A stretch of 45,749 bases of DNA from a virus. Location of the stretch: positions 1-45,749 of the IMG/VR virus record IMGVR_UViG_3300034198_022797; one strand, 5' to 3'. This document shows positions 3,965-42,506 of this stretch, piece after piece. A program made the position numbers and the translations under genes. The stretch's first letter is position 1. Every line of letters begins with the position of its first letter. The notes below the pieces were generated by a model. The model did not search any database and was not told the origin of the DNA. It saw nothing but the letters and a program-made list of their open reading frames with translations.

Positions 3965-4898
3965 AAAATTTCTTTATTTTTGCTGCTGTAAGTTCGTCAA
4001 AACGAGTATAATCAATATCGCTTGATTGTACTAAAAACCACTCTTGATTTGCAATTAGAATAGTAAATCTATTAATTTTTGCCCAATCTGCTAGTGCTAT
4101 CATTTTTGCTTCATGTATAGCACCATTGCATAATTCTTTTGGTTTAACTTCAATTAAAATTCTATTTGTGTAATCAATAAAATCCACAATATAAATTTTA
4201 TAATTATTTAAATATTCATAAGGTATTCTGAGTTTTTCGTATTCTGCTGCGGGATTATAATATTGATACAATGCCTCCCAAGAGGATCTATATTTTTTAC
4301 TATCAAGCATACTATTCCAATGAGTATTTCTATTATTAGAATTTGGAGTAAATTCTCCCTTTAATATTTTTTCTTTCATTAATTTTGATTTGGCTTCTCT
4401 TACTTCTTGATTATGTTTTTTACCGTACATGGGATTTCCAATAGAAGTACGATCTCTACTTAGTTTTGCCAACTTACTATTAGTTTCTTTTGTTTGTCCA
4501 GTTTGCCACATACAATCTGCATACAAATTACCACCCTTAGTAGTGTATTCATTCAACATCTTACCCTTATTCCATGGTATTGTTGGTTGATTTATAATTG
4601 CTGGTAAACCTTGTTCCTTTCTTTTATGTTGACAAGAAAATCCGCCAATTTTAGAAATAATCGACTTTATTTCTTTATCAGTTATTCTACCGTCTAATAA
4701 ATTATCAATGTTTTCTCGCCAGATTGATTGATTAGAACTAAGTCTACGTAAGAATACACGTCTATTATCATATTCTAATTTTAAACCATTGCTTAATAGA
4801 ATACTTGTTCCAGACCATTCTAAAATACGAATTTTCTGTTGAGCATTTTCTAATATTTTATTAAATTTTTGTATCATTTCAGTTGATTTAATTTTCAT
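3924..4898 (-). CDS. Free-standing homing endonuclease inside the fractured uvsW gene
   Basis: A protein of about 324 residues lying between the two halves of uvsW. It has NUMOD3-like DNA-binding motifs (IPWNKGKM and NPMYGKKHNQEVREAKSK) and then a PD-(D/E)xK-type nuclease region: RSSWEALYQYY, a strand with VDFIDY (putative catalytic Asp), and ILIEVKPKE (E-x-K). The same RSSWE...D...EVKPK order appears in gp4 at 13338-13775. I chose the ATG at 4898. A longer reading from 4988 would overlap the intein-N coding sequence by about 56 nt and adds a stretch unlike the family. The gene is visibly AT-richer than its neighbours, as expected for a mobile gene. Its likely role is to cut intein-less uvsW alleles and spread the whole arrangement. 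Confidence 0.85.
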   Translation of the reverse strand: MKIKSTEMIQKFNKILENAQQKIRILEWSGTSILLSNGLKLEYDNRRVFLRRLSSNQSIWRENIDNLLDGRITDKEIKSIISKIGGFSCQHKRKEQGLPAIINQPTIPWNKGKMLNEYTTKGGNLYADCMWQTGQTKETNSKLAKLSRDRTSIGNPMYGKKHNQEVREAKSKLMKEKILKGEFTPNSNNRNTHWNSMLDSKKYRSSWEALYQYYNPAAEYEKLRIPYEYLNNYKIYIVDFIDYTNRILIEVKPKELCNGAIHEAKMIALADWAKINRFTILIANQEWFLVQSSDIDYTRFDELTAAKIKKFYEANIKKRNRKAN

Positions 4899-4932
4899 AT
4901 AAATACATCCGCTGCTGCACAATGTATTTATA

Positions 4933-5943
4933 TTAATAACCAATGATTTCATGATCTGTTGATAATTCGACGGCTCTAATCCAACCATTAGTTGTCAAAA
5001 ACTTATGGTTACCGGTTACTTTTATACGCTGACCGTTATCAAGTTCTAATTCATACATTTTTTCACTATTGGATTTTACAAGGTTTTTATGTTGTTTGAT
5101 TACAGTATCCGTTTTAAAACTTTTTGTCTCCTCAGAATAATTTATTACTTGGTCACCTGAACATATATCTTTAATTGGTTTGTAACCTGTTGGTGTAAGA
5201 ACTAACGCATCACCATCAAAACACTCATCTGCTATTACACAGATTTGATCTTGCATGAATTCTTCCAACTGACCTTCGTCTAAGGCATCTTTGCCTTTCT
5301 TGTCCAGTATGTTCAAGCTTTGCCAAGTGCATATGGTATGCTTGCAAGTGTATTCTTTTCTATCGCCAAAAATTACACCCACATCCAATCCCAAGTTCAC
5401 ATAATCTTCTTCAGTCTGCAGCACAAGGTTTTTATTAGGCACAATCACAATACTGCGACCATATGGTTCAATCATTTGACTCAGTGTTGATGTGATAATG
5501 GTCTTGCCTGCACTGGTGGGAGCAACAGCAACACCCTGCAGGTTGTTTACACAACTGTTGATCACATCCACTTGATAATCTCGCAGTTCGATAGGTTGAC
5601 CTTCAAATCTATGACCAGCAGGCCAAGTCTTATTGCTGTGATATGCAGTGTCAATGGGTGTAAGTGCAATGGAATAACTCTTGCGCTGATCTACGATGTC
5701 TAATTCATACCCAGCTTCTTGAATTATGGGCAATACCACTTCCAGTAGATTCAAGTAAGTTCTACCGCCAATGGTCATGAAACTCTTGGTACCATCCCAG
5801 CGGCCCAGCTTGTATGCAGCACTGTATCTTGCAGCAGGAATAAAATACTTCAATGCTGTAGAACATGCTTTTCTTGTGTTCAAGTCAAGACCCACCAGCT
5901 TGCAGTTTACTTCATCTTCGATTATGAGTTGGCACTGGTTCAT
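4933..5943 (-). CDS. uvsW: UvsW helicase N-terminal half fused to split-intein N fragment
   Basis: A 336-residue fusion. Residues 1-240 are the N-terminal part of UvsW: ELRDYQ (Q-motif-like, about 119-124), Walker A APTSAGKT (141-148), IVPNKNLVLQT (Ia, about 167-177), and the start of motif II, CVIADE, ending at residue 240. Residue 241 is Cys1 of an intein: CFDGDALVLTP (block A), KVTGNHKF with the TxxH signature (block B), then LSTDHEIIGY and stop. The intein N fragment is therefore 96 residues. The ATG is 15 nt after the uvsY stop, so it belongs to the uvsX-uvsY-uvsW unit. Full activity needs trans-splicing with the product at 3128-3964. Confidence 0.92.
   Translation of the reverse strand: MNQCQLIIEDEVNCKLVGLDLNTRKACSTALKYFIPAARYSAAYKLGRWDGTKSFMTIGGRTYLNLLEVVLPIIQEAGYELDIVDQRKSYSIALTPIDTAYHSNKTWPAGHRFEGQPIELRDYQVDVINSCVNNLQGVAVAPTSAGKTIITSTLSQMIEPYGRSIVIVPNKNLVLQTEEDYVNLGLDVGVIFGDRKEYTCKHTICTWQSLNILDKKGKDALDEGQLEEFMQDQICVIADECFDGDALVLTPTGYKPIKDICSGDQVINYSEETKSFKTDTVIKQHKNLVKSNSEKMYELELDNGQRIKVTGNHKFLTTNGWIRAVELSTDHEIIGY
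4936..5223 (-). other. Split intein, N-terminal fragment (96 aa)
   Basis: This encodes Cys1 through Tyr96 of the intein. Block A begins CFDGDALV, and block B contains T-G-N-H. The preceding extein residues are Asp-Glu of helicase motif II, so insertion is between E and C of DECH. No endonuclease domain is fused. A separate endonuclease gene follows after 34 bp. Confidence 0.9.
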
Positions 5944-7883: not shown

Positions 7884-8912
7884 TTATTGATTTTGGTTTC
7901 TATTGCGAACCATGGCCAAGATTTGCTCTGGGGTCATGGTCTTGTTTGCTGTTTTAGCAGCAGGTGCTGGTTCAGCAGCAAACGGGGCGTCATCTTCAAC
8001 TGCTGCTGGCACTGGTACTGGACGAGCAGCAGCACGTGGTACAACTGGCGCTGCACGTGGTACAACTGCAGCAGGAACATCATCAACAGCAGCATTGCCA
8101 TTGTTTTCAGTCTTTAGTCCAGCTGGCTTGTAGAATTCTGCCCAACGATCAGCATCATACTGTTCGCCGTTGACACTTGCCTCAAACATTTCCATCATGG
8201 CCTTGAGATGTGCATCGTCTGGCTTCTTGGGCAGGAATGTGCTCAAGTTGAACAAACCAAAGCGATCAATTGCATCCAACTCGTCCTGATTCAGTGCACG
8301 TTCCTTCATGGCCCATGAACTGCTGGTATAGTTGGCATATTCGCCCTTTTGAGTCTTGGACAAATAAAAGTCTCGACCGTTGTCATAATCAGTCGGAGTG
8401 TGTTCAAGATCCTGACGCATCAAAATACCCTTGATGATGTCATGAATGGATTGGTTGATGATAAAACGCCTAATGGGATTTTCTGGTGGTTGATCATCCT
8501 TGTTGGGATTTTGTGTAACCAAACCTTGATATAGATAGCTTTTCTTACGATAGTAAGTACGAGCCATTTCCAGCAGATCATCCTGCTTCCACCATGGTGA
8601 AATTTCAGCAGTGATTGGGCAGCTATTGGGCTTCCACATGTTAACACATGGAACTTGAACTTCAACCCTCTTGTCTCCTGGTTGTCCTTTGATACCAGCA
8701 AACGGCAACTTGATGATCAAGCGCTCAACCCAGAAAAAGTCATTGAGTTCATCGCCGTCTGGCAAAAATCTCAGTGTAGCTGTACTTGAATTTGGATTGT
8801 TCCAGAAAGGGTAAACTGCGTTATCACCACTGGGTGCGCCACCCTTTGCACGATCTTTGCGAGCCTCTTGTTCCATAAGCTTCGCTTGTATTTCTTTTAA
8901 TGAAAGAGCCAT
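7884..8912 (-). CDS. 32: Single-stranded DNA-binding protein gp32
   Basis: A 342-residue T4 gp32-type ssDNA-binding protein that coats ssDNA during replication and recombination. The N-terminal LAST-like basic segment is followed by the OB core: YPFWNNPNSSTATLRFLPDG, then VPCVNMWKPNSCPI in the zinc-loop region, then RKKSYLYQGLV. A long low-complexity Ala/Pro/Val linker (about residues 273-322) leads to a short C-terminal helix (MTPEQILAMVRNRNQNQ). This tail is not acidic, unlike that of T4 gp32. The start codon lies about 60 nt from a late-type box, and a strong hairpin follows the gene. Confidence 0.9.
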   Translation of the reverse strand: MALSLKEIQAKLMEQEARKDRAKGGAPSGDNAVYPFWNNPNSSTATLRFLPDGDELNDFFWVERLIIKLPFAGIKGQPGDKRVEVQVPCVNMWKPNSCPITAEISPWWKQDDLLEMARTYYRKKSYLYQGLVTQNPNKDDQPPENPIRRFIINQSIHDIIKGILMRQDLEHTPTDYDNGRDFYLSKTQKGEYANYTSSSWAMKERALNQDELDAIDRFGLFNLSTFLPKKPDDAHLKAMMEMFEASVNGEQYDADRWAEFYKPAGLKTENNGNAAVDDVPAAVVPRAAPVVPRAAARPVPVPAAVEDDAPFAAEPAPAAKTANKTMTPEQILAMVRNRNQNQ

Positions 8913-8973
8913 GTTGTTTTCCTATATTATGAGCCTAGACCGCATGCTAATGTTTCATAACATGCCGACACAC

Positions 8974-8981
8974 TATTTATG
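8974..8981 (-). promoter_or_regulatory. Late promoter box (CATAAATA) upstream of gp32
   Basis: CATAAATA on the minus strand lies about 61 nt before the gp32 ATG, in a 97-bp intergenic region. It matches seven of eight bases of the T4-type late box. Confidence 0.45.
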
Positions 8982-9009
8982 CTATATATGGGATCAAACA
9001 GTCAATAAT

Positions 9010-9630
9010 TTACAGTTGCTTCAACAGATCAAAAGCAGCTTTTGGATCTGATTCATACTTGGCTCGCCACATTTGATCAACTGCAATCAAGTAGCTCATG
9101 GTATCATCATAATCATAATTGTGGATTTCTAACGCCTCTTTTGCCGCAGCAGAATCAATTTGATCTTCTTTTAAAATAAAAATAGATTCCACTGTAAACT
9201 GGTTGAGAAATGCATATAGCTCTTGTTCTTCTAATACTTTTCCTGTTTTGTCTTTGGCACGTACTTCATCTCTAGGTCTAATGATTCTATTGAATGTGGC
9301 CCAATGAACAAGAATATCTTCTCTTAGTCCCACTGCAGTTTTTATATATGACACCAATTGCTTGATGTCTGCATAATTTTCTTTGCCAATTTTTTTAGCA
9401 GTGGGTGTTTTGATATCAATTGAGTCCATGGTATCGTTGATACAAACCAGAAAGCTGTAAGAATCCAGATCTGGTCTTGATAGGTCAGTGTTTTCTTTGG
9501 TAGCAAAAAATCGATCAGCGTCAGTGGGTTCAATGGTTTTCATGCCATAGTCATCAAACATCTGAAGATAGAATCCACTACCTTTTAATATTTCAAAAAT
9601 TTTGTTACTAATGGTTGATCTGTCTCTCAT
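9010..9630 (-). CDS. Conserved hypothetical protein between large terminase and gp32
   Basis: A 206-residue soluble protein that I cannot place. It opens MRDRSTISNKIFEILKGSGFYLQMFDDYGMKTIEP, a compact alpha/beta-looking N-terminus, and ends in a helical region (EALEIHNYDYDDTMSYLIAVDQMWRAKYESDPKAAFDLLKQL). No catalytic motif is evident. It does not resemble helicase loader gp59 or gp33, which flank gp32 in T4. A consensus late promoter TATAAATA ends only 5 nt before the ATG, so it is expressed late and the message may be leaderless. A packaging or structural role is possible but unproven. Confidence 0.65.
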   Translation of the reverse strand: MRDRSTISNKIFEILKGSGFYLQMFDDYGMKTIEPTDADRFFATKENTDLSRPDLDSYSFLVCINDTMDSIDIKTPTAKKIGKENYADIKQLVSYIKTAVGLREDILVHWATFNRIIRPRDEVRAKDKTGKVLEEQELYAFLNQFTVESIFILKEDQIDSAAAKEALEIHNYDYDDTMSYLIAVDQMWRAKYESDPKAAFDLLKQL

Positions 9631-9635
9631 GTTTG

Positions 9636-9643
9636 TATTTATA
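9636..9643 (-). promoter_or_regulatory. Consensus late promoter (TATAAATA), 5 nt from start codon
   Basis: A perfect T4 late box on the minus strand. With the T4 spacing (box at -13 to -6), transcription would begin at the A of the ATG at 9630, giving an essentially leaderless mRNA. Confidence 0.6.
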
Positions 9644-9644
9644 A

Positions 9645-11231
9645 CTACAACACAATAGGCATGGGTTCATCGTAGAATCCGTCGCTATCTTCCCAGGTAT
9701 CTTTGAGTATTTCACCAAATCTATCATCCCAATTCTGCATCATTTGCATCATGCGCACACACAACAGTGTGGCCATTACTGCATCATCTGGTACACCGGT
9801 TTTGCCTTCAAAACTGTTGCCTTTGGACACAAAGAACTTGAGCTGTCGAACAAGCTCTTTGCTGTATATTTTCAATCTGTCCTGTTCAATGAGACTCTTG
9901 AGTTTGGTACATGCTTGTGCTTTGGTCCTGCCATTGGTGTTGAGTCCTTTTCTGGGTCTTGACTGACCTTTGACCCGAGGCTCATTCATGAATGTACCAA
10001 GAAAATTTTCCTCTCCAATTTCAGCAATGGTAACCAATGCAGCTTCGCCCCAACTGTTGTTTTCAATTGTGAAGTATATGTCAGGGTCAATTTTTTTTGG
10101 TGATGCCTTGACAATTTCGCCATGTATATAGTTTACAAGATTTTGCATGATGCGCACTTGTTGCGGGATTGATGTTCTGTTGTGCGACCACTCTGCCACC
10201 TGCTGTAGATCAGGCATGCTGAATATTTCAATGACACTGAAATCTTTACCAACACCTGCACTGGGATCCAGAGATATAAGATAGGTGGTGTTGGCGGTTA
10301 CATGGTCATACCACCTCACCTGACCATGAGTTTTAAACAATGGATCTCTACCTTGCAGTTTTAACAATTTGGCAGGTGCAATTAAGGTTTCATCAGCTGA
10401 TATAAACTCACATTGATATTCTCGCCTAAATCGATCAATGCCAATCTTGGCACGCTCTCGGTCTGCCCACACTTCGTCTCTACCCGGCACATCATAATAA
10501 TTTGCCATAAATGCTTTGAATCCATTGACTCCCACACCACCAGGTATACTGTTGCCATGTTCGTCAACATCCTTAATGGCACCATACCATAGCTCTGCAA
10601 ACTTGTCTTCGTCACTGTTGGGTGTAGAAGTGATAATGCATTTACCGCCAGTGGCCAATGTGGGACTCATGGCTGTCCAAAATTCTTCAGCAATTCTTGG
10701 CTTGATAAAGGCCATTTCGTCAATGTACAACAAACTAATGGACAGTCCTCGTCCACTGTCTGGAGTTGTGGTGGTGGATAGTATTCTACTGCCATTGTCA
10801 AATTCAATGCTTTGAGCATTGTATGTTTTAACACCGGCTCGTATATAGTCTGGTGTTTCTTCATATGCAAATTTCACACGCTGCATGATTTCACTGGCAG
10901 CTCTAAATTTGTTAGCAGCAATCAGCACTGTGACATCTGGGTTGAACATGGCATACCATAATAAAAATCCAGCAGCAGTTGTGGTTTTACCACTTTGACG
11001 TGGCAACATGGCAATACAGTTGGTGAATTTCCAATATACCTCAACCAGCTGTTTTTGAAAATCATATGCTTCAAACTTTATGCGTCCCCGCGTGGGGTTG
11101 GTGATGTACATGTAGTTTTCCATATAATATATGGGGTTAAGGCTACATTTGATAAACTCACGACGCTGAAATTCAGTCATGGAAGTTTTTCCAGGCTTTT
11201 TGATTATTTCATAGTCGCTGTTGGTTGGCAT
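9645..11231 (-). CDS. 17: Large terminase subunit gp17
   Basis: A 528-residue packaging ATPase/nuclease that pumps DNA into the prohead and cuts the concatemer. N-terminal ATPase: Walker A PRQSGKT (77-83), Walker B LLYIDE (about 167-172), coupling motif TSTPN (about 205). C-terminal RNase H-like nuclease: YLISLDPSAG (first Asp), a central ENNSWGEAA segment, and GVPDDAVMATLL near the end (last Asp pair). The length is close to that of other T4-like gp17 proteins. It lies downstream of gp16 and a DnaJ-zinc-domain gene on the same strand. Confidence 0.95.
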   Translation of the reverse strand: MPTNSDYEIIKKPGKTSMTEFQRREFIKCSLNPIYYMENYMYITNPTRGRIKFEAYDFQKQLVEVYWKFTNCIAMLPRQSGKTTTAAGFLLWYAMFNPDVTVLIAANKFRAASEIMQRVKFAYEETPDYIRAGVKTYNAQSIEFDNGSRILSTTTTPDSGRGLSISLLYIDEMAFIKPRIAEEFWTAMSPTLATGGKCIITSTPNSDEDKFAELWYGAIKDVDEHGNSIPGGVGVNGFKAFMANYYDVPGRDEVWADRERAKIGIDRFRREYQCEFISADETLIAPAKLLKLQGRDPLFKTHGQVRWYDHVTANTTYLISLDPSAGVGKDFSVIEIFSMPDLQQVAEWSHNRTSIPQQVRIMQNLVNYIHGEIVKASPKKIDPDIYFTIENNSWGEAALVTIAEIGEENFLGTFMNEPRVKGQSRPRKGLNTNGRTKAQACTKLKSLIEQDRLKIYSKELVRQLKFFVSKGNSFEGKTGVPDDAVMATLLCVRMMQMMQNWDDRFGEILKDTWEDSDGFYDEPMPIVL

Positions 11232-22920: not shown

Positions 22921-24534
22921 ATGAGTGTGATATGTCAACTGTGTAATCAAGTGTTTGACAAACAAATCACCAACCGTCATCTCAAATACAAGCATAATAT
23001 AACCACTACCGAGTATAAAAATCAGTTTGGCAAGTACAGCCTCACTAGTGAAGAATACCGTGCGGCCAAAAGCCAGCAGTCAAGTGGAACAAACAATTCC
23101 ATGTATGGTAAAACTCATACCACTGATACCAAAAAAAGAATAAGCACCCGTAAAAAAGGACAACCTGCGCATAATTTAGGCAAAAAAATAACTGACGAGC
23201 AAAAACAGCTTCTCAGCAGCAAAGCCCACGAACGAGCACAAAAATACAAAGAAACTCAAACTCATCCAAGAGTTGGTAAACCTATCAAGGCCGAAACAAA
23301 AAATAAAATCAGTCAATCATTAACTGGTCGTGTCACTGCAACCATCGAGTCAAAACAAAAATCAAAAGCAACCAAGATATTAAATGGTACATACGGATTG
23401 GCTCCCATGCAGGGTAAAAAACACTCGGATGCTACCAAGCAAAAAATAAAAGCATCGCTGTTAAATTTGGCTGAAACTAGACACCACACGACTTATGAGA
23501 AAATAATAAATTTACTAAGCTCTATCAATATATCGGTAGTCCAGTTTGATCAACACAATCAATACATGTTGCTTGAGTGTCAGGCATGTAATAATCAGTT
23601 TGAATTTACCAAGCAATATACAACACCGTCAAAATTTCGAAAAGATTTATGTCCATATTGTCGACAGTCAGTTGCACACAGTGCAGCAGAATATCAAATA
23701 CTTGATTTTATCAAAAGCTTGTTACCCGAGCAAACAATATTAAGCGGTAATCGATCAAAAATTTATCCACTTGAGCTGGACATATATATACCAAATCTAA
23801 ATATAGCAGTTGAATATTGCGGATTATATTGGCATAGCGAGCTTAATGGTAAAGACTCAAAATATCACCTGCATAAATTACAAAAATGTCAAGAAAAGGG
23901 CATCAAGCTAGTCACTATTTTTGAAGACGAATGGATAAACCATTCTCATCTGGTAAAAAGTCGTCTGAAAAATTTGCTGGGAAAAACTACAAATAAAATT
24001 TCAGCAAGATCATGTACTGTAGTAACATTAGATAGTCATAGTGCTAATCAATTCTGTAAAAACAATCATATACAAGGTTCTGGACGAACCAACCATGCAC
24101 AGGGACTTGTTTATCAGCAGCAGTTGGTGGCTGTAATGACTTTTTCTAAACCATCGGTTGCCAAAGGTGCAGCCAAACATGATTTCGAGCTTAATCGTTT
24201 TTGTTGCAGTATTGACACTGTGGTTATTGGTGCAGCATCTAGACTATTCGCAGCATTGATCAAAGATTTGGATCCAACCACTGTGATATCCTATAGCGAT
24301 CTTCGGTGGAATTCAGGAAAAGTATACGAGATACTTGGATTTAATTTTGATGGTCAAATAACTCCCAACTATTGGTATATAGATTTTGCTCAATGCAAAA
24401 GAATACATCGGTATGCATTAAGAAAAAACACATCGGATGATAAAAATCTAACCGAGTGGCAAAATCGACAATTGCAAGGTTACGACCGAATATGGGACTG
24501 CGGTAATCTACGATACATCTGGACAAAAAAATAG
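22921..24534 (+). CDS. Homing endonuclease with Vsr-like nuclease domain
   Basis: A 537-residue mobile-gene endonuclease. Domains in order: an N-terminal zinc finger (CQLC...H-x4-H, about residues 5-24), several NUMOD3-like repeats (NSMYGKTHTTDTKKRIS, AHNLGKKITDEQ, RVGKPIKAETKNKIS, MQGKKHSDATKQKIK), and a second CxxC...CPYC zinc motif (about 219-246). Next is an EDxHD/Vsr-like nuclease core (LELDIYIPNLNIAVEYCGLYWHSE, then TIFEDEW), followed by a C-terminal domain shared with the gene at 41049. It is inserted between gp13 and the sheath gene, ends at a bidirectional terminator, and is AT-richer than the flanking genes. Self-spreading by cutting related phage genomes is inference from the family. 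Confidence 0.85.
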   Translation: MSVICQLCNQVFDKQITNRHLKYKHNITTTEYKNQFGKYSLTSEEYRAAKSQQSSGTNNSMYGKTHTTDTKKRISTRKKGQPAHNLGKKITDEQKQLLSSKAHERAQKYKETQTHPRVGKPIKAETKNKISQSLTGRVTATIESKQKSKATKILNGTYGLAPMQGKKHSDATKQKIKASLLNLAETRHHTTYEKIINLLSSINISVVQFDQHNQYMLLECQACNNQFEFTKQYTTPSKFRKDLCPYCRQSVAHSAAEYQILDFIKSLLPEQTILSGNRSKIYPLELDIYIPNLNIAVEYCGLYWHSELNGKDSKYHLHKLQKCQEKGIKLVTIFEDEWINHSHLVKSRLKNLLGKTTNKISARSCTVVTLDSHSANQFCKNNHIQGSGRTNHAQGLVYQQQLVAVMTFSKPSVAKGAAKHDFELNRFCCSIDTVVIGAASRLFAALIKDLDPTTVISYSDLRWNSGKVYEILGFNFDGQITPNYWYIDFAQCKRIHRYALRKNTSDDKNLTEWQNRQLQGYDRIWDCGNLRYIWTKK

Positions 24535-29441: not shown

Positions 29442-30212
29442 TTAGAATCGACAACCGTTTTTGTATTCTGCAATACATGCGTCAATCCAGATGTACAACG
29501 GCGAACTGCTAGAGAGCAAACCCAGATAGTAATATGCAAAAGAGTCTGCCCAAAATTCAAAGCTATCAGTAGTTGAATATTGAGTAGGGAACAAACTATG
29601 ATCATTATTCATTGCATGATAATACATTGCATCCACTGCTTGATGCAAGTTCAACCCATTGGTTGACCCTCTAGCAACGCTGTTACCACACATGAATTGA
29701 AACCTATGACCTAATTCGTGTATGAGCACAAATTGATAACTTCCATTATGATATGCACCCAGGTCCACTGAAATTTGTATATAATCCCGAGGTGGGAACC
29801 AATACAGTCCTGCTGCACCATAAGTCAAGTTGTAATCAAAATCAATATTTTCATTGAGTATGTTGCCTATCCCATCAGCATCCAGCAATGTTTTAGTAGC
29901 ATAAAAATCTTTATTGAACTGAGTTCTTGCTGCATCCGATGCATACGAAGAAAATTTAATTTTAAATCCAGCAGGAGGTTGGACTGTTGGGTTGGTGTTA
30001 ATTGTTACAGTTGGCGGAAGTGGCGGTGGCTGCCAATCGGGACTGGTATATTCATCATCATAATTGTCAATCTCGTCATTTGTGATGAGACCGTCTTGAC
30101 CTCTGCGGTCAATTGACACACCTCGTTCTGCATGTGGCAACTGCTGATCTAGAAATTCGATCAATCTTGAATTGGAATTTTTATTTTTTTGTGCAGGTGG
30201 ATGTCTTTTCAT
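29442..30212 (-). CDS. Putative zinc metalloprotease (HELGH)
   Basis: A 256-residue protein with a zincin signature: LIHELGHRF (HExxH at 165-169). About 50 residues later comes FEFWADSFAYYYLG, where E219 is a likely third zinc ligand (gluzincin-like arrangement). Residues 1-80 are charged and Pro-rich, probably disordered. There is no signal peptide. The family is not certain. It could process a virion or host protein or help with entry or lysis, but nothing in the sequence decides. It converges with the dNMP kinase gene and follows a 314-residue hypothetical. Confidence 0.75.
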   Translation of the reverse strand: MKRHPPAQKNKNSNSRLIEFLDQQLPHAERGVSIDRRGQDGLITNDEIDNYDDEYTSPDWQPPPLPPTVTINTNPTVQPPAGFKIKFSSYASDAARTQFNKDFYATKTLLDADGIGNILNENIDFDYNLTYGAAGLYWFPPRDYIQISVDLGAYHNGSYQFVLIHELGHRFQFMCGNSVARGSTNGLNLHQAVDAMYYHAMNNDHSLFPTQYSTTDSFEFWADSFAYYYLGLLSSSSPLYIWIDACIAEYKNGCRF

Positions 30213-32655: not shown

Positions 32656-33435
32656 TTATGATCCAGGCAAGTACGGCTTGTTTATAATATCGTCAATGGT
32701 TTCGTACTGCATGCGATTGGGACCAAGGTCGTCTAATGTTGTAAAAATTGAGCCTGTGCCATTACTGCGAATCAAAAATGGTGCAAACTCTTTATCATTA
32801 ACAATGTCAAAATATCTACGCATCAGCTCATCGTGATTTTCTTCTGTGGGATTTTCGCCGTGCGTGCGCAACCAGTTTTTTGTAAATGTAATTTCTGGTG
32901 CAGATCCACCGTCTCTACTGGTCTCCAGTATACCATTGTGTAGGTTTTGCAAAGTCAGATTAAAGGTTTTTAGCAATGCTTCTGTTTTGCCCATGAACAA
33001 GTGATCTGCTGCATGGTAAGGGTAATATACCTTGGGTCCGAACACCATGCTGCCGCAAACCCACTTGGAATCATCAAGCATAAACTTGTCAACAAGTTTT
33101 TCCAAATTTGAGTAGCGCTCGTCTGTTCTATGTTTAATTGTGTATCTGGTATAACATGAGCGCAGGCCAGCTGCAGTGGTATACGAATGCAAGAATATGT
33201 TGTTGTCATTTCTTACATTTCCCACCTGTTGAGTTTGATGCACAATGTTTATATCATGCTCTTTACAAAAATCAATAAAGCCAGTATTACCAACAAGATG
33301 TTCTGTGTAGGTTGACACAATGATTTGAGTAAACAATGTTTTGTAATATGGCACTGCAGCAACAAAGTCCAGTTTGTCATTGAACAACGGTCCCTGTATC
33401 ATTAATGATACATCAGGATACTTTACTTTCTCCAT
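32656..33435 (-). CDS. WavE-like glycan/LPS biosynthesis protein
   Basis: A 259-residue protein with the features of the WavE lipopolysaccharide-synthesis family (glycosyltransferase-like): VSLMIQGPLFND at the N-terminus, IVSTYTEH, then GNVRNDNNIFLHSYTTAAGLRSC and YTIKHRTDERYSN (the R/N and KxRTD blocks, about 79-115). Probably transfers or modifies a sugar. It is the last gene of the nine-gene minus-strand operon and overlaps the upstream methyltransferase gene by 13 nt. No membrane anchor or signal peptide. Confidence 0.75.
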   Translation of the reverse strand: MEKVKYPDVSLMIQGPLFNDKLDFVAAVPYYKTLFTQIIVSTYTEHLVGNTGFIDFCKEHDINIVHQTQQVGNVRNDNNIFLHSYTTAAGLRSCYTRYTIKHRTDERYSNLEKLVDKFMLDDSKWVCGSMVFGPKVYYPYHAADHLFMGKTEALLKTFNLTLQNLHNGILETSRDGGSAPEITFTKNWLRTHGENPTEENHDELMRRYFDIVNDKEFAPFLIRSNGTGSIFTTLDDLGPNRMQYETIDDIINKPYLPGS

Positions 33436-34079
33436 GCAAATCCTATTCCATAATCATTTTCATTTACACTGCAGCAATTTTCTACTACATGCCAAGTTTT
33501 TTTATCTAGGTATTTTACAAACATTGTGGGCCCAGGATGTATCGATGTGTCATGAAAACCAACTATGCCATTTGGTGATAGAAACTTGGTATATTCCCAC
33601 TCTGTTAACACTTGGTTGATACTGTGCCAACCGTCAATGAATAAAAAGTCAATTTCGCTAACACCTTTATCATTTAAAAATTGCATAACTTCATCAAGAT
33701 TTGATGAATCAGTTCTTAAAGTATAGATATTTTTATCAACATTGTTCAAGTAACTGCTGTCATCGATATCAACTCCCAGGTACACAGTGTTAATATTTTT
33801 ATTATCAAGAAATGTACGTGTTGATGTCATTTCGGTTGGAGTGCCGTTACAATCAACACCAATTTCCAATATACATTTACATGTGTCTTTGATTTTAGAA
33901 AAATGTTCAATTATTGCATCTATGTTGCACTGGCTCATGGTTTGATCAATTCCAGTTACAGGGTTCACCACTGAGAAGGACCGATCTGGTACTTCGGGAA
34001 ATCTACCATGGTTACCATCAAGGTCATCTCGATCATCATGAAACCGAATATCTTGAACCAAGTCTTCTTGCCACTTCAT
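33423..34079 (-). CDS. Class I SAM-dependent methyltransferase-like (paralogue A)
   Basis: A 218-residue protein of the CmcI/MT24-like group. CILEIGVDCNGTPTEM is motif I, VYLGVDIDDSSY follows, and EIDFLFIDGWHSINQVLTEWEYTKFLSPNGIVGFHDTS is the conserved metal- and SAM-site segment with DGWH and HD. Much of its length is clearly similar to the gene at 39455-40162, for example TMSQCNID, TEMTSTRTFLDNK, IDGWHSINQ and DYGIGFAWR. It overlaps the FkbM gene (4 nt) and the WavE gene (13 nt). It likely methylates a sugar or a small molecule made by the operon. Confidence 0.8.
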   Translation of the reverse strand: MKWQEDLVQDIRFHDDRDDLDGNHGRFPEVPDRSFSVVNPVTGIDQTMSQCNIDAIIEHFSKIKDTCKCILEIGVDCNGTPTEMTSTRTFLDNKNINTVYLGVDIDDSSYLNNVDKNIYTLRTDSSNLDEVMQFLNDKGVSEIDFLFIDGWHSINQVLTEWEYTKFLSPNGIVGFHDTSIHPGPTMFVKYLDKKTWHVVENCCSVNENDYGIGFAWRK

Positions 34080-34879
34080 ATGATAATTCTCCGATTTGTA
34101 TATTCTTCAGTGTACCAAGCAGTGTTCACATACACCACATCAAGCTCGTAACTGTGACACAGTTTTCTCAATTCAGTGACTTCTACAAATCCCAAATTGT
34201 TCAAGTATTGATCGATATCGTTAAACAGCCCATGTCCGTGATAGTAAGGTTTTATCCCGGCTTCGGTGATGATGACCTTGGTATTGGCTAGGCAGTTTGC
34301 GCCACCTTTTAACACATCAAGCTCGGCACCTTGGACATCCATCCAGACCAAGTCCGGGCCAGATATGCCAATGCTGTTACAATAATCATCAAGCGAATAT
34401 GCATCAACTGTGATTTCTTTTTGTATCCAATGCTCGTTTAAAAAAGTGCCATTGAGTCCGTCAATTAACTTCAACTTGCTGGCAACACCATGATTATAAT
34501 TGCCCCAACTGGGAACACTGTGTTCAGTGTCTAGTGGATAAAAATTAATTTTTCCGCTAATGTCATTGACTGCAAAATCATTTATCTTGATTCTGTCTTG
34601 AAAATCTCTAGAGAGTTTAGACCAGTTGTTGTTGCACATGGTAACACATGCTGGAGATGCTTCAAATGCATGAACCACAGTGTGCGGAAATGCAGTTGCT
34701 AAACTAATTGACTCATTTAAATCTCTACTGCCGATATCAAAGCAGTGCAGGAAATTGTCAAAGTCCAGTCGGTCAGCAACTGCAGCTAGTCGTTGATGCA
34801 TTTCCCTGGCATTGTCGTCATGTGTTCTTGGCAATAGGTTTGCTAGGTATTGACCATTGTTCACTTCACAAGTCCCCAT
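34076..34879 (-). CDS. FkbM-family methyltransferase
   Basis: A 267-residue SAM-dependent methyltransferase. LHCFDIGSRDLNESI is motif I, VVHAFEASPACV is the acidic loop, and LVWMDVQGAELDVLKGGANCL is the diagnostic FkbM segment, followed by VIITEAG. Enzymes of this family often O-methylate sugars in polysaccharides or natural products. It overlaps the RuBisCO-like gene by 19 nt and the following methyltransferase by 4 nt, which indicates a single polycistronic message. Confidence 0.88.
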   Translation of the reverse strand: MGTCEVNNGQYLANLLPRTHDDNAREMHQRLAAVADRLDFDNFLHCFDIGSRDLNESISLATAFPHTVVHAFEASPACVTMCNNNWSKLSRDFQDRIKINDFAVNDISGKINFYPLDTEHSVPSWGNYNHGVASKLKLIDGLNGTFLNEHWIQKEITVDAYSLDDYCNSIGISGPDLVWMDVQGAELDVLKGGANCLANTKVIITEAGIKPYYHGHGLFNDIDQYLNNLGFVEVTELRKLCHSYELDVVYVNTAWYTEEYTNRRIII

Positions 34880-36054
34880 TTGGCAATGGCTTGTTCATAC
34901 TCTGTACCATATGTGCGGTCCACAGCTTGACGCATGGCCGTTGCACCTGCTAGAGTGCCACCTGGGTGTCCATGAACAGCTCCTCCAACGTTGGCAAGAT
35001 AGTCAATGCCTGCCAGTTCTGTGACCTTTTCAACCAGCCCAGGATGCATACCACAGCTGAGAGCAGGTACAGTATTACCTGCTCCCAATACATTGATGCA
35101 TTGCTTGATTTCTTCAGGGTTATCATTGCTGTACCCACCAACCATGCCAGTTTGTATGGTGTCCACACCCATCAGTGTTGCCAGCTGACACATCACAGGC
35201 CATGCAATACTGAACCTGTGATTTACATCGGTAAACACCTTAGCGCCACTGCTTTGATAGTGTAGGTAAATGGGAAGGTCCAGCTTGCGAATGCTGTTGT
35301 AAACACCCAGTCCACTGAACACATTGATGTGCACTCCGTTGCCTCCCAGCTCGTGCACACGCCGCACCCGATCAACTACCACATGCGGATCACAGTTGAT
35401 GGTATGGCATATGACCACTTGACGACTCTGCTTGGCCATGTAGTTGGCTATAATATCAACTCTGCGTTCCAGTGGTGCACAAACAGGATTACTCATGATT
35501 TCATCTTCTTTGATAAAATCCACTCCGCCATCTACCATTTGCTTGATCATTTCCAGCAAGGTTTCAGCACTTATGCCAATCTTGGGTTTTACAATACTTC
35601 CAAACAGCGGCTTGTTGTATTGGCCAGTAAATTGTCTAATACCGCTAAGTCCAAACTTGGGTCCAAGAAAATGCTTGCGCACACATTCTGGCAATTCAAG
35701 TTTGATCAATCTACAGCCAGTGATGATATCAATGTCCACATGGCCGCCCATGAGCTGACACAGGAGGTGACTGATGCCGTCAGTTTCCCAGTCAGTATTG
35801 GCGACTGGAAAACCAAATGCAACTTCCAATGTGCCGGTTGTATCCAATCTTTGTTCACTGTCCAGTATGATACAGCTATGATTTTCAAACAGTTCGTCGG
35901 TTTCCCATTCATTTCGTACATTGGGATTTCCAACACTTTGTCCAATTGCTAGATTCCACGCTGCATCTTTAATTGACACATTGCTGGTCAAAAGATATGT
36001 TGCAATCACATAATCTTCACTGTTGATTTCGTTACGAGTTCTATAAAACTTCAT
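34861..36054 (-). CDS. RuBisCO-like protein (RuBisCO large-subunit homologue)
   Basis: A 397-residue protein of the RuBisCO large-chain superfamily. By alignment to plant RuBisCO by eye: LFGSIVKPKIG carries K156 and K158 (K175/K177), GGVDFIKEDE gives K182, D184, E185 (carbamate K201, D203, E204), LHYQSSGA has H265 (H294) but Y266 for R295, DTIQTGMVGGY has Q301 for H327 and Y308 for K334, LSCG has S333 and G335 (S379/G381), NVGGAVHGHPGG gives G357-G358. The N123 position is Gly. Metal and carbamate ligands are kept, but R295, H327, K334 and N123 are lost, so carboxylation is unlikely. It looks like a form IV-type protein (enolase, isomerase or decarboxylase of a keto-sugar phosphate). AGAGG lies 6 nt before the ATG. 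It is flanked by a glycosyltransferase-like and an FkbM gene. Confidence 0.9.
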   Translation of the reverse strand: MKFYRTRNEINSEDYVIATYLLTSNVSIKDAAWNLAIGQSVGNPNVRNEWETDELFENHSCIILDSEQRLDTTGTLEVAFGFPVANTDWETDGISHLLCQLMGGHVDIDIITGCRLIKLELPECVRKHFLGPKFGLSGIRQFTGQYNKPLFGSIVKPKIGISAETLLEMIKQMVDGGVDFIKEDEIMSNPVCAPLERRVDIIANYMAKQSRQVVICHTINCDPHVVVDRVRRVHELGGNGVHINVFSGLGVYNSIRKLDLPIYLHYQSSGAKVFTDVNHRFSIAWPVMCQLATLMGVDTIQTGMVGGYSNDNPEEIKQCINVLGAGNTVPALSCGMHPGLVEKVTELAGIDYLANVGGAVHGHPGGTLAGATAMRQAVDRTYGTEYEQAIAKWGLVK

Positions 36055-36081: not shown

Positions 36082-36849
36082 TCACCACTGCGGACCTCGA
36101 CAGTTGTTACCTCTCACTATTCTAACGGGTAAAGAGATCGGTTTCAAATATTCTAATGAAAAATTTCTTCTAAAGCTGTTGAATTTCATTGCTTCTGCAT
36201 TGGGTTCCCACAAACTGTATAATTCGTCATCTGATATGTTGATGGTGTTGTCAAACATGTGTGTAAAAGCTGGCAAAAATACAGGATCGAAAATAAATCC
36301 CAGATCTGGAAATTTAGCATGATGATTGCTCAGATAAAATCGTCTTGGTTCCAACAAGCCAAGTTCAGGATAGTCCCATATACAAATATCGGGTCTTGAT
36401 ATTAGCACCAAATCATATGATTGCTGATTTCGCAACATGTGCATGTCCAGCATTTTGGCCACACGTTGTACACTGTACATCTGGCTCAAGATGTTGTTAA
36501 ATGCATTGGGTGTTTCAAACCATCCTGCTTGCCATATGTGCGGCCAATCCCGAGCTTTGGCTCGATCATACATGATTTGTTCTTGTGGAAACTTTATTGG
36601 ATTGTCAAACTTTACTTCTGTAAAGCGATATTTTTCCTGTACCTTGGCCATGGCATCTGGATCACTGGGAGATGCTTCGTATGAGACATGACTGCTTTGA
36701 CTCAAGCGTGCACTGGTCTCAGGTGACCAAAAGTGACCAAATACATCAACATCTCGATATCGATTGATTATGAATTGATGATGGCTTTCAGTAGTATGCG
36801 GATTATCAATCCATCTCAATTGGCCAAACAGTAAAAGAGCAATTTTCAT
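36082..36849 (-). CDS. Glycosyltransferase-like protein of a polysaccharide-locus type
   Basis: A 255-residue protein opening MKIALLLFGQLRWIDN, a start often seen in uncharacterised proteins of bacterial surface-polysaccharide loci. A central YDLVLISRPDICIWDYPEL resembles the RxD/DxD strand of nucleotide-sugar transferases. There is no transmembrane segment. Its place immediately before the RuBisCO-like gene (27 nt gap) and after the 212-residue gene suggests a shared pathway. A TATAAATG sequence overlaps the start but is not a good late box. Confidence 0.6.
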   Translation of the reverse strand: MKIALLLFGQLRWIDNPHTTESHHQFIINRYRDVDVFGHFWSPETSARLSQSSHVSYEASPSDPDAMAKVQEKYRFTEVKFDNPIKFPQEQIMYDRAKARDWPHIWQAGWFETPNAFNNILSQMYSVQRVAKMLDMHMLRNQQSYDLVLISRPDICIWDYPELGLLEPRRFYLSNHHAKFPDLGFIFDPVFLPAFTHMFDNTINISDDELYSLWEPNAEAMKFNSFRRNFSLEYLKPISLPVRIVRGNNCRGPQW

Positions 36850-36883: not shown

Positions 36884-37522
36884 TCAGCTGCATTTTTGCT
36901 CAGCCTGTGCTTCTGTGATGGTACACAATTGATCAAAAGAATCGAGCTGATACTTGGTCCATTTACCGCATGGAATACCCTGGGGTGCACGATATCCCAC
37001 ACTGGTATCCAGTATAACTTCAACTGCTCGCAGTCCTTGATATGCACTGTTGGGTATTGCATAAAAATAAAATCGATCTTGCTGCTTGCTATAACAAACA
37101 GCTCGAATCAACCCAACTTTGTTTTTGACATCACTGATGGTGAAAGTGTTCATCCAGCAATCTTTACGTAGATTGTTACATCTAAAAACACTGACTGCTT
37201 TTTTGGCATCACTGTTGTCAGTGAAGTCACGACCGTGTTCTGCTATTCGACTATATTGACCGTTGCTGTTGCAGGCCAAGGCATTTTCCAATAGTGTTTC
37301 AATGTGTATAATACCTTGCTCCACTAAAGACCTAGCAAAATTAATATATTCAGTTGGTTGACCTTTGAATGCATATGGTGCAAGTAAGTCAAAAAACTTA
37401 TAGTCCTCGGCAGTGACCATCACAGTACTCATCAAACACAATCCTTCTACACATGTGTATTTGTGCGATTGTGCAAGAATAGGTTTGGCAAAATCAAAAT
37501 GATTCAGACTTACCAGCATCAC
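36884..37522 (-). CDS. Hypothetical protein in the RuBisCO-like operon
   Basis: A 212-residue protein that I do not recognise. The central block SDAKKAVSVFRCNNLRKDCWMNTFTISDVKNKVGLIRAVCYSKQQDRFYFYAIPNSAYQG (about residues 104-163) reads like alternating strands with conserved D-A-K and aromatic positions. It could be a small binding or nuclease-like fold, but this is weak. The gene overlaps the upstream nucleotidyltransferase-HAD gene by 4 nt and so is probably translated with it. Cys-rich at both ends, with no classical zinc motif. Confidence 0.6.
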   Translation of the reverse strand: MMLVSLNHFDFAKPILAQSHKYTCVEGLCLMSTVMVTAEDYKFFDLLAPYAFKGQPTEYINFARSLVEQGIIHIETLLENALACNSNGQYSRIAEHGRDFTDNSDAKKAVSVFRCNNLRKDCWMNTFTISDVKNKVGLIRAVCYSKQQDRFYFYAIPNSAYQGLRAVEVILDTSVGYRAPQGIPCGKWTKYQLDSFDQLCTITEAQAEQKCS

Positions 37523-38580
37523 GCTAAGTACAAGGTGTCTGAATCTCTAGGAATGTTTATGCTTTCGCATGCTGGATATGGATTTGATGCAGCATAGTCG
37601 TTGACAATAATGCGCTTGCTGTGAGGTAAAGACATGATGAGATGATCAAATGGTATTTGATACTTATCTAGCTCAGCAACAGTTTCTACTCTATATCGCT
37701 CAGGGCGGCTGGTGGTTAAAATTATAACTGTATTGCCCTGCTGGTATAGCTTTTGTAACTGTTGTATATTGTTCAACATGGGTTTACCCATGCCCATCAT
37801 TGGATATAGGTTTACGCCAGTATTGGTAATCAAAGTACCATCGATATCACAAAAAACTGTTTTGAACTGACTTTTGTACTCGAGCCAATTGTCAAGTGTG
37901 CCCCAGTCAACATAATGACTAACCGGTGTGCCTGTGAAATTTTGGTTGTCAAGTATCATTTGAAAAATCACATGACTGATATAGCATTCTTGACCATGTG
38001 TGTATTGGGTGCAAATGAGCTCAAAATATTTTACAAAGTCGCTGGCATTTTTAAAACCATAACCACCCACACTGAAAAAACTGCTGACCACTTTTTTCTC
38101 AATAATACCTGTAATTAGATTGTTATAATCCATGCTGATGTAACTTTTATTACTGGCATTGATTCTCTGGTGTTGTTCAAGACTGCTAAAGCACACCTGG
38201 TTATTATCAAATTCAATGTTGGCAACAAAGTAGTTGTCACTGTCTTTGACAAATATATATCCCTGTATATTCATCTGTTTAATGATTGTGTATACTGTTT
38301 CGCTTTGAGAACTGGTAGCAGTGTCCAACGAACAAAAATACACTCGGTCTAATATGCCTAGCTCATCTAGTTCTTGTTTGAGCCCACTGAGAAAACCATA
38401 CTTGGTTTCATGTTCAGACAAAAATCCAATGTATATGCAATCAAATGCTGTTAGGTCAAGACCTTCAATGCTGCTGGTCACCATGAATCTTGAAGTCTTG
38501 GGATGAGTCAACATCCATTTGGGTCTAGTGGTTGCAAACCTGGTGGATTTGCCTGCTATGGGTATTATTAAATTCTTCAT
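37519..38580 (-). CDS. Nucleotidyltransferase-HAD phosphatase fusion
   Basis: A 353-residue two-domain protein. Residues 1 to about 235 form a sugar-phosphate nucleotidyltransferase-like domain: MKNLIIPIAGKSTRFATTRPKWML (nucleotide-binding loop), VKDSDNYF (D113/D115 metal site), and DWGTLDNW near its end. Residues about 240-353 form a HAD phosphatase domain: VFCDIDGTLI (D245, D247), ILTTSRPE and IVNDYAASNPYP. A fusion of an activating and a dephosphorylating enzyme suggests making or trimming an NDP-sugar or an NDP-polyol. The N-terminus is certain from the family motif, so the 56-nt overlap with the kinase gene is real. Confidence 0.85.
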   Translation of the reverse strand: MKNLIIPIAGKSTRFATTRPKWMLTHPKTSRFMVTSSIEGLDLTAFDCIYIGFLSEHETKYGFLSGLKQELDELGILDRVYFCSLDTATSSQSETVYTIIKQMNIQGYIFVKDSDNYFVANIEFDNNQVCFSSLEQHQRINASNKSYISMDYNNLITGIIEKKVVSSFFSVGGYGFKNASDFVKYFELICTQYTHGQECYISHVIFQMILDNQNFTGTPVSHYVDWGTLDNWLEYKSQFKTVFCDIDGTLITNTGVNLYPMMGMGKPMLNNIQQLQKLYQQGNTVIILTTSRPERYRVETVAELDKYQIPFDHLIMSLPHSKRIIVNDYAASNPYPACESINIPRDSDTLYLA

Positions 38581-39433
38581 AAAGATCCAGTTTGGCTATT
38601 GCACAATCTAGAATGTCTTTCTTGTATTGATCCATTGCATAAGGTTCAATTCTCAACAATGTTAATGCATCAATCATGAAAAAACTACTAGATGTATAAA
38701 CTAAATTGTATTGCTTGCTGAGTAAATTCCAAATATAATTTATAGACTGTGCAATTTTTAACTGGTTATTATTTTTCATTCGATCATGTTCAATACTGCT
38801 GCTCCAGTGATAGTATAGATCTTGTTTGAGTTTGGAAAAATCATACAATGGAGTTTCAATATGCGAGTCTAAGAAGTCTATCAAACAGTATTGCCCAGGC
38901 TTGAACAATATGTTGCTTAATGTTAGGTCACCATGACAGAATCCAGTATTCACCAATGTCTTGGTATTGCGTTTGCGTAAAAATCTAATAAACTCTTTGT
39001 GTCTACTAGGTGGTTCAAGTGCAGCAAGTTTTCTATCCACTTGATGTGTTACATCAATCATGGTATCTTGCCAATTATGATCCAAATATTCTCTCAAGGC
39101 TTGATAAAAATCATCCAAGTCTACTCTGGTACACGTGGCAAAAAACTCAATAAACGATGCCCCAGCAATATATGGCATGTCAAAATACACACACCCTTGA
39201 TCTGTGCCAGTTCGCAATATGGGAGCAGTTGAAAATGTTAAATCAAAATTTTTGTCATAGCGCAACTGTTTGGAAATTTGTCGCAATAATCGATCATTGC
39301 CGCTAACCGCGGATGCAGATTTACGAATAGTTGATTGATCAAGTATGGTTAAATTACAGCTTGATAATCCAGTATTGATCATGGAATCAATTGTCAATGT
39401 TGATATTACTGCTTTAGCACAGTAGTATTGCAA
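38525..39433 (-). CDS. Aminoglycoside/choline-kinase-like phosphotransferase
   Basis: A protein of about 302 residues with the APH/choline kinase fold. Catalytic loop: GFCHGDLTLSNILF (HGDLTLSN, 167-174), followed by YCLIDFLDS (184-190) with the DFG-like Asp. The substrate is unknown. Relatives phosphorylate choline, ethanolamine, methylthioribose, sugars or antibiotics, and the gene lies next to a nucleotidyltransferase, as LicA-LicC-type pairs do. The start is uncertain: TTG at 39433 gives the longest frame, but ATG at 39382 (residue 18) is possible, and neither has a good Shine-Dalgarno. It follows the paralogue B methyltransferase after 21 nt. Confidence 0.8.
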   Translation of the reverse strand: MQYYCAKAVISTLTIDSMINTGLSSCNLTILDQSTIRKSASAVSGNDRLLRQISKQLRYDKNFDLTFSTAPILRTGTDQGCVYFDMPYIAGASFIEFFATCTRVDLDDFYQALREYLDHNWQDTMIDVTHQVDRKLAALEPPSRHKEFIRFLRKRNTKTLVNTGFCHGDLTLSNILFKPGQYCLIDFLDSHIETPLYDFSKLKQDLYYHWSSSIEHDRMKNNNQLKIAQSINYIWNLLSKQYNLVYTSSSFFMIDALTLLRIEPYAMDQYKKDILDCAIAKLDLYEEFNNTHSRQIHQVCNH

Positions 39434-41048: not shown

Positions 41049-42506
41049 ATGTTTTTTGAAAAAGATGAAATTCTAAAATTAGTTAAACAATATCCAAAAC
41101 ACTATAGTATTATTATACGTAAAAATCCGATATTATTTGCATGGGTTGAAGCTAATCACAAATTAGCGAATAACACTGATTCAATTGGTGCAAAAATTTA
41201 TAGTGCTGTGTATCAAGAATCTGATGTATGTTCGGTAGGAAATGTTAAAAAATACACTAGATGGTCTACAGGCTTTTCAAACTGCGGACCAGCCGCTATA
41301 TGCAAGTGCACACAACAGCAAATTTCAGAAAACGTACAAAAAACTAAATCTGCATATAGTCAAGAAGATCATGATCGAATCAATCAAAAACGTAAAGACA
41401 CTATGAAAAGTATATATGGCGTTGAAAGTACATTTCAACGTCCAGAAATGCAACCTTTCTTGACCAGGGCAAAGGTTGATATGGATGTGTACAACAAGAT
41501 AACTGACCGAGAATGGCTAAATGAAGAGTACATTAATAAGAAGCGCACTTCAGTTGACATTGCAGATGAACTTGGTATTGATTACAGCACAGTAATATTT
41601 CACTGTAATAAGTCGGATATTGAAACCAGAAGTGGCAGTAATTATTCACTAGTGGAAAGAAAGGTCTCCGTATTTTTAGATGAGTTAGGTGTAGAACACA
41701 AAACGAATGTAACGCGGATGTTATCTGGCAAACTTGAGTTAGATATCTATGTACCAACTCATAATTTTGCAATAGAAATTAATGGTCTATATCATCATTC
41801 AACTAAACGGGTAGATGCCAAACAGGCTGTCAATAAACATATTAGCAAAACACTGCTGGCCAATGAAAAAAATATTGAGTTGTTTCATGTAACCGATTGG
41901 GAATGGGATAACAAACAAGATATCATAAAAAGCATGATTAAAACTAAGCTTGGATTTAATCAGAAAATTCATGCTAGAAAATGTACTATCAAACAAGTTA
42001 GTACTGCACAGTCTAGAGAATTTTTAGATCAATACCATTTGCAAGGTTATATTCCCAGCAAATTTTATCTAGGACTTTACTACAATAATGATTTAATCAT
42101 GATGATGACTGCTGGTAAACCAAGATTTAATAAAACCAAATATGATTTAGAAATATACCGTATGTGCTCAAAAAGCGGGATAACAGTTGTAGGTGGTGCA
42201 TCAAAACTACTTGCATATTTACGTGATCAGTACAATGTATCAAGTATTATCACATACTGCGACAGAAGTAAAAGTGTTGGCAATGGATATATGCAAATGG
42301 GTTTTAAAAAGATTGGCGCCACAGAACCAGGATATTTTTGGACAAATGGAAATCTTGTTGTATCAAGATATCAAACTCAAAAGTCTAGACTACAATCTTG
42401 GCTAAAATCCTATGATGCATCAAAGTCTCAAACAGAAAACATGATCGCTGCTGGTTATGGTAAATTTTGGGATTGCGGTAACTATATTTTTGTATATAAT
42501 ACATAA
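41049..42506 (+). CDS. Homing endonuclease with Vsr-like nuclease domain
   Basis: A 485-residue protein. The first ~130 residues are helical and basic. Residues about 155-190 resemble a helix-turn-helix (EYINKKRTSVDIADELGIDYSTVIFHCNKSDI). The nuclease core is LELDIYVPTHNFAIEINGLYHHS (EDxHD/Vsr-like, Asp and His positions) followed by LFHVTDWEWDNK. The C-terminal part (KIHARKCTIKQVSTAQSREFLDQYHLQGY..., then YGKFWDCGNYIF) matches the C-terminal domain of the gene at 22921. It has its own late promoter, lies against the gp23 terminator, and is AT-rich. Presumed mobile. Confidence 0.82.
   Translation: MFFEKDEILKLVKQYPKHYSIIIRKNPILFAWVEANHKLANNTDSIGAKIYSAVYQESDVCSVGNVKKYTRWSTGFSNCGPAAICKCTQQQISENVQKTKSAYSQEDHDRINQKRKDTMKSIYGVESTFQRPEMQPFLTRAKVDMDVYNKITDREWLNEEYINKKRTSVDIADELGIDYSTVIFHCNKSDIETRSGSNYSLVERKVSVFLDELGVEHKTNVTRMLSGKLELDIYVPTHNFAIEINGLYHHSTKRVDAKQAVNKHISKTLLANEKNIELFHVTDWEWDNKQDIIKSMIKTKLGFNQKIHARKCTIKQVSTAQSREFLDQYHLQGYIPSKFYLGLYYNNDLIMMMTAGKPRFNKTKYDLEIYRMCSKSGITVVGGASKLLAYLRDQYNVSSIITYCDRSKSVGNGYMQMGFKKIGATEPGYFWTNGNLVVSRYQTQKSRLQSWLKSYDASKSQTENMIAAGYGKFWDCGNYIFVYNT

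Follow-up and report, generated by a model that had tools for sequence, protein, structure and literature searches.

Why does a T4-like phage carry a gene for a RuBisCO-like protein (RLP), and what might its product do? The gene lies at 34861..36054 on the minus strand of the window, the whole 45.7-kb virus record analysed here (IMG/VR IMGVR_UViG_3300034198_022797), and encodes 397 aa from an ATG start. A sequence-only reading had described it as a full-length homologue of the RuBisCO large chain, and profile and structure searches bear this out. The protein matched Pfam RuBisCO_large (PF00016) with 121.5 bits (E 5.4e-35; cut-off 30.1), and a PDB sequence search gave 99 entries at E<=1e-3 (best 9e-39) that, among the matches listed, were all RuBisCO or RLP. 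Structure prediction and superposition, proposed as a check, yielded an AlphaFold2 model with a pLDDT of 94, for which the top Foldseek match was the type III RuBisCO 3a12 (TMq 0.90), with the methionine-salvage enolase MtnW (2oem) and the Chlorobium RLP (1tel) both at TMq 0.87; the Chlorobium protein (1tel/1ykw), a match in fold, shares 22% identity with the window RLP. With the Pfam score above cut-off and the RuBisCO fold, the protein belongs to the RuBisCO superfamily, and the concern that alignment might place it elsewhere falls away. Its relatives are under purifying selection, with dN/dS of 0.01-0.09 in seven pairs; for the two pairs nearest to the window RLP itself, saturated dS makes the ratio uninformative.

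The carrier, judged by its gene content, is a T4-like myovirus, as had been proposed. PHROG matches included UvsX, the ssDNA-binding protein, terminase, tail tube, tail sheath and the phrog_138 major head protein, helicase and neck genes were likewise found in the window, and T4-like genes flank the RLP gene on either side. A chimera of phage and bacterial DNA, which would have undone this reading, was rejected as the source: an identical protein is encoded on a second, independent and longer contig (L026, 50.9 kb), and scores of further viral contigs hold relatives, many of them with phage genes. Elsewhere in the window, a UvsW-like helicase gene (3128-5943, minus strand) is split in two around a free-standing endonuclease-like ORF (3924-4988). 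An intein N-part closes its N half (ADE/CFDGDALV...; Pfam Intein_splicing E 3e-10) and an intein C-part opens its C half (...VVSN/C followed by HRAAADVL), which by sequence is a split intein in a 'fractured gene' arrangement. Two homing/HNH endonuclease genes of one family (phrog_3339; 22921-24534 and 41049-42506) lie on the plus strand, opposite to most genes, the latter flanking the glycan island beside the head genes. A 256-aa protein (29442-30212, minus strand) has a HELGH zinc-protease motif and a weak, below-cut-off match to an ATLF metalloprotease-type domain (E 6.7e-5).

In RuBisCO, enolization and the return of the proton depend on the K201 carbamate, D203, E204 and K175, CO2 addition and the later steps on K334, E60, N123 and H294, and R295, H298 and H327 hold the second phosphate at the P2 site (spinach numbering). 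Across 90 aligned sequences of the RLP clade, K175, K177, K201, D203, E204, S379, G381 and G403 were retained without exception and G404 in 87. At six positions all 90 have another residue (Gly for E60, Asn for T65, Gly for N123, Gln for H294, Tyr for K334 and Cys for G380), and three positions vary, with Lys, Ser or Arg at R295, mainly Asp or Ala at H298, and His or Gln at H327. The key residues of the window RLP are K156, K158, K182, D184, E185, Q267, Y308, S333 and C334. The sequence-only reading had correctly recognised KPK, FIKEDE, S379 and GG...GHPGG, as well as the changes of N123 to Gly, H327 to Gln and K334 to Tyr. Its 'H294-equivalent His', however, corresponds to spinach 292, the true position 294 being Gln267, and the Tyr that it placed at R295 is actually Ser268. 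Both assignments are two positions off, since the 90-sequence alignment agrees in register with those made pairwise against 8dht and 3nwr; the clade-invariant changes at E60, T65 and G380 were absent from its list.

Since E60, T65, N123, H294 and K334 are replaced throughout the clade, CO2 fixation is very unlikely, and the loss of the P2 residues R295 and H298 makes a bisphosphate substrate unlikely. From the pattern of retained and lost residues we infer a reaction in which a monophosphate would be enolized without CO2. The protein therefore lacks the catalytic residues of bona fide RuBisCO (forms I-III) and agrees with the broad definition of form IV, i.e. a RuBisCO homologue that is without part of the carboxylase residues and keeps those of the metal site. 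In agreement, the earlier proposal of a form IV-like enzyme with an intact metal site that would not fix CO2 is supported by all 90 sequences.

A phylogeny was built with 73 rows, 44 of them from the RLP clade; forms I-III, MtnW and OiaX-type (apionate-pathway) proteins were included, and the R. rubrum-type and photosynthetic RLPs were absent. A single branch with 100/100 support set all 44 members apart from OiaX-type proteins, MtnW and forms I-III, and the split persisted without the longest branches (SH-aLRT 99). Of the placement suggested by the sequence-only reading, the form IV-like character stands; the clade is neither MtnW nor apionate-type and has its own motifs and gene neighbourhood, and of the comparisons then proposed the tree covers forms I-III, MtnW and the apionate group. 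RLPs of SAR11, Crocinitomicaceae and viruses are intermingled in the tree (100/98), a sign that viruses and cells may have exchanged the gene. One SAR11 genome (SAG-MED47, L099) carries a cellular GDPD-NTase-RLP unit at 8793-11185 of a 232-kb contig, and its RLP is nested among viral ones; judged from these sequences, genes have probably been exchanged between phages and SAR11 surface-glycan islands.

Could the protein nevertheless belong to one of the known functional classes? Every NCBIfam equivalog model scored the window RLP far under its cut-off. The case for a true CO2-fixing RuBisCO, carried as an auxiliary metabolic gene for carbon fixation, draws on the fold, the carbamate lysine and the metal ligands, on form III as the closest curated HMM, and on a soil viral rbcL co-expressed with rbcS that was reported active (PMC12615777). 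Indeed, archaeal form III RuBisCO (3a12, 8dht) resembles the RLP in fold (TMq 0.89-0.90) and in K175, K177, K201, D203, E204, S379, G381 and G403. However, the form III model reached 172 bits against a cut-off of 497, identity to the archaeal enzymes is ~25%, the six replaced positions include the carboxylase residues, and the clade forms its own branch outside forms I-III. Scans of viral contigs equivalent to that for the RLP, and like it dependent on short peptide patterns, found no relatives of form I or form III. We consider carbon fixation by this protein very improbable.

An apionate-pathway (OiaX/transcarboxylase) enzyme would decarboxylate a 3-oxo sugar acid phosphate to a ketose phosphate, a product also usable for glycans, and OiaX-type RLPs share the metal site and ~28% identity with the window RLP. 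The OiaX profile (NF042437) gave 136 bits against a cut-off of 700, and the two groups are separate clades. Moreover, the OiaX group has T65, H294, R295 and K334, which are lost here, and is without K177, which is kept here. Plasmid OiaX-type genes adjoin four-carbon acid sugar kinases and transporters, none of which was found here, where the neighbourhood looks biosynthetic rather than catabolic; nor did the pattern-limited scan detect an OiaX-type gene in viral contigs. This assignment is improbable, and a methionine-salvage role still more so. In the latter, the window's APH-type kinase and HAD phosphatase domain, both close by, would act with an MtnW (2,3-diketo-5-methylthiopentyl-1-phosphate enolase), an enzyme with a matching fold; a single-phosphate substrate and enolization chemistry, as in MtnW, are likewise predicted for the RLP. 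MtnW has Lys at position 123, where the clade has Gly, and lacks the K177 that the RLP keeps. Its models gave 129 bits (TIGR03332; cut-off 514) and 155 bits (NF007095; cut-off 409), its gene neighbours differ, and across relatives it is a nucleotidyltransferase, not a kinase and HAD domain, that accompanies the RLP. A single-protein query found no MtnW relatives in viral contigs.

The RLP itself is real and widespread. A single-sequence scan of viral contigs gave 29 loci with relatives, and an alignment scan gave 219, of which 80 were kept (56-83% identical); the search of viral metagenomes proposed earlier thus found many relatives accompanied by phage genes. The clade is carried by many marine and freshwater phages. 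Among cultured phages (INPHARED, 50,697 records, E 1e-3) no RLP was found, and PHROGs and BFVD contained no viral protein with a RuBisCO fold. Since the scans rest on short peptide patterns, rare divergent copies could escape them. A search of 84,980 species genomes of bacteria and archaea gave 23 relatives, mainly in SAR11 single-cell genomes, with others in three Legionella and in Azospirillum, Elusimicrobia, Verrucomicrobia and DPANN archaea. As the gene occurred in only 1 of 147 genomes sampled from one SAR11 order and in 4 of 22 from the genus Legionella, it is an accessory gene in cells.

The neighbours of the gene point to what it may supply. Of 92 non-redundant loci, 84 had a nucleotidyltransferase (NTase) within 11 kb of the RLP, always on the RLP's strand, 63 a mini-GDPD and 57 a cupin; the usual gene orders are NTase-cupin-RLP-(methyltransferase)-GDPD and GDPD-NTase-RLP. 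By profile, these genes lay within 2.5 kb of the RLP in 81 (NTase), 55 (cupin) and 58 (mini-GDPD) of the 92 loci, compared with 0, 0 and 3 of 102 control stretches taken 4-9 kb away; as loci chosen for their similar RLPs are not independent of one another, the contrast is descriptive. When RLPs were collapsed at 70% identity into 29 clusters, the NTase was found in 24, the cupin in 20 and the GDPD in 18. Four of the five clusters without an NTase (L069, L110, L112 and L119) are at contig ends or beside runs of N, and the fifth is the high-GC, poorly called L114. The RLP-NTase pair is retained down to 36-44% identity in Legionella, Elusimicrobia, archaea and SAR11, and two-gene RLP-NTase units occur in Legionella and Elusimicrobia. 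The Legionella unit also contains a divergent LicD transferase; LicD was not found near viral RLPs in the 92-locus set and was rejected as the general transferase.

The NTase (phrog_3980) matches profiles of sugar-1-phosphate nucleotidyltransferases, and a close PDB entry (4evw, E 3e-34) is titled merely nucleoside-diphosphate-sugar pyrophosphorylase. The mini-GDPD, of ~150 aa, retains HRG, ExD and GHD; its model (pLDDT 93.5) is nearest, weakly, to GDPDs (E 4e-3), and its matches in 299 Pseudomonadota genomes were confined to the N-terminal signature of ordinary GDPDs. Most cupin members have HxHx4E. In five loci the NTase bears an N-terminal beta-phosphoglucomutase-like HAD domain (L095:3845-5212, L086:4-1017, L190:4631-6004, L191:1797-3182 and L193:3299-4684); the window NTase differs in having another HAD domain, at its C-terminus.

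In the window, the RLP gene sits in a co-directional, minus-strand cluster between the tail-sheath and head genes. Directly upstream, after a gap of 27 bp, lies a gene for a conserved glycan-cluster protein (36082..36849; phrog_13607), glycosyltransferase-like by eye, followed by a 212-aa protein without Pfam, NCBIfam or PHROG match (36884..37522). Next are the NTase with its C-terminal HAD phosphatase-like fusion (37519..38580; phrog_3980, as for the RLP-adjacent NTase in relatives) and an APH/choline-kinase-like small-molecule kinase (38525..39433; Pfam APH E 6.4e-11, above cut-off). On the other side, an FkbM-family methyltransferase gene (34076..34879; Pfam Methyltransf_21 E 2.9e-18) overlaps the RLP stop by 19 bp and thus belongs to its operon. 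Beyond it are a Methyltransf_24-type methyltransferase (33423..34079), a frequent RLP neighbour (27 of 92 loci of relatives), and a conserved protein of family f53 (32656..33435) that has no Pfam match, is WavE-like by eye only and also occurs near the RLP in loci L039 and L041. The methyltransferases, kinase and NTase-HAD beside the RLP support a glycan pathway within the window. The NTase, the sole one there, scored 61 bits against the NTase profile, lies ~1.5 kb from the RLP and is a possible activation partner for its product. A profile search of the 45.7-kb stretch found no cupin or mini-GDPD, and the longer 50.9-kb contig of the same phage has no mini-GDPD either. In loci L002 and L039, the NTase beside the kinase family (the HAD-fused subtype) coexists with a second NTase adjoining the RLP. 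With only the HAD-fused NTase and neither cupin nor mini-GDPD, the RLP-NTase link is weaker for the window phage than for the family.

These observations leave some weight, although not much, on the reading that the RLP works in the glycan island on a pathway separate from the NTase (e.g. on an unactivated sugar or sugar acid), or is a binding or regulatory protein, which we hold to be unlikely. The position and HAD fusion of the window NTase speak for it, as do cultured T4-like cyanophages: in S-CAM9, DSL-LC03, B23 and S-SM2 the NTase family (HAD-fused in three of them) and the mini-GDPD occur in glycan islands that have no RLP, so the NTase is not always dependent on one. Glycan islands hold many unrelated genes, and neighbourhood alone does not prove one pathway. 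On the other hand, the NTase adjoins the RLP in the large majority of clusters, including the two-gene units of Legionella and Elusimicrobia, and all metal and base residues are invariant. These cyanophage lipopolysaccharide (LPS) gene clusters, whose role was left open in 2010 (PMC3037559), thus resemble the RLP loci in two gene families and differ in lacking the RLP. S-SM2 (L192, 2388-6447) has a class II aldolase in the neighbourhood of NTase and mini-GDPD, where other phages carry the RLP; on one reading of this single example, RLP and aldolase might be alternative suppliers of an activated building block.

The best explanation, to which we give a probability of about two in three, is that the RLP is a keto-sugar-monophosphate isomerase or tautomerase feeding a nucleotide-activated glycan precursor; with CO2-fixing residues lost and sugar-activating genes adjoining, it probably helps to build surface sugars. 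The enzyme would bind Mg2+ through carbamylated Lys182 (K201), Asp184 and Glu185, and its glycine-lined P1 site would take the one phosphate of a keto-sugar monophosphate. An enediolate would form and be re-protonated by Lys156 (K175), and the product would be an isomer, epimer or tautomer of the sugar phosphate. The linked NTase would couple this product to a nucleotide, and transferases of the cluster would move the activated sugar onto a host-surface or virion glycan, with cupin and mini-GDPD participating in most relatives. A role in building something, suggested earlier from the operon, agrees with this neighbourhood; overall, the sequence-only reading was confirmed in part in what it observed and supported in part in what it concluded.

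Unplaced RuBisCO homologues and viral ones have been met before. The 2007 Global Ocean Sampling (GOS) survey left 65 ocean homologues outside the known clades unplaced (PMC1821046); by description, they are like the RLP in being marine, metagenomic, outside forms I-IV and variable at N123 and H327. Three papers present viral rbcL genes as genes for carbon fixation (PMC8506154, PMC12615777, PMC12607003). One of them, on a landfill virome and published in 2025 (PMC12607003), describes a viral 'rbcL' that groups with 'RbcL-like' proteins and notes its presence in IMG/VR. Compared by description, these are viral homologues as ours are; that paper reads them as carbon fixation, and its passages on them give no gene-context or active-site analysis. 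The earlier judgement that such a phage enzyme is little or not described was nearly right, as either set may include members of this clade; with 219 viral contigs, the enzyme is no rarity. In the open-access literature, we found no report linking a viral RLP to nucleotide-sugar genes.

The roles known for RLPs lie in sulfur salvage or in the breakdown of sugar acids. With a large clade linked to nucleotide-sugar genes, the fold would have a new use in making surface glycans, mostly in phages, and because Legionella and Elusimicrobia have RLP and NTase as two-gene units, the reaction can be tested directly in vitro. For ecology, viral 'rbcL' is reported from its annotation to be carbon fixation, yet the same search that gave 219 contigs of this clade gave none of form I, form III, MtnW or OiaX type, within the limits of its patterns; a viral 'RuBisCO' gene needs checking before it is counted towards carbon fixation. 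The odds are about even for the broadest statement: that this is a RuBisCO-fold family spread mainly by aquatic viruses and common to SAR11, Legionella and archaea, that it would catalyse a new reaction towards a nucleotide-activated sugar for viral or host surface glycans, perhaps attached via a phosphodiester link, at which LicD and the GDPD-like partner hint, and that most viral RuBisCO-family genes may encode such an enzyme and not carbon fixation.
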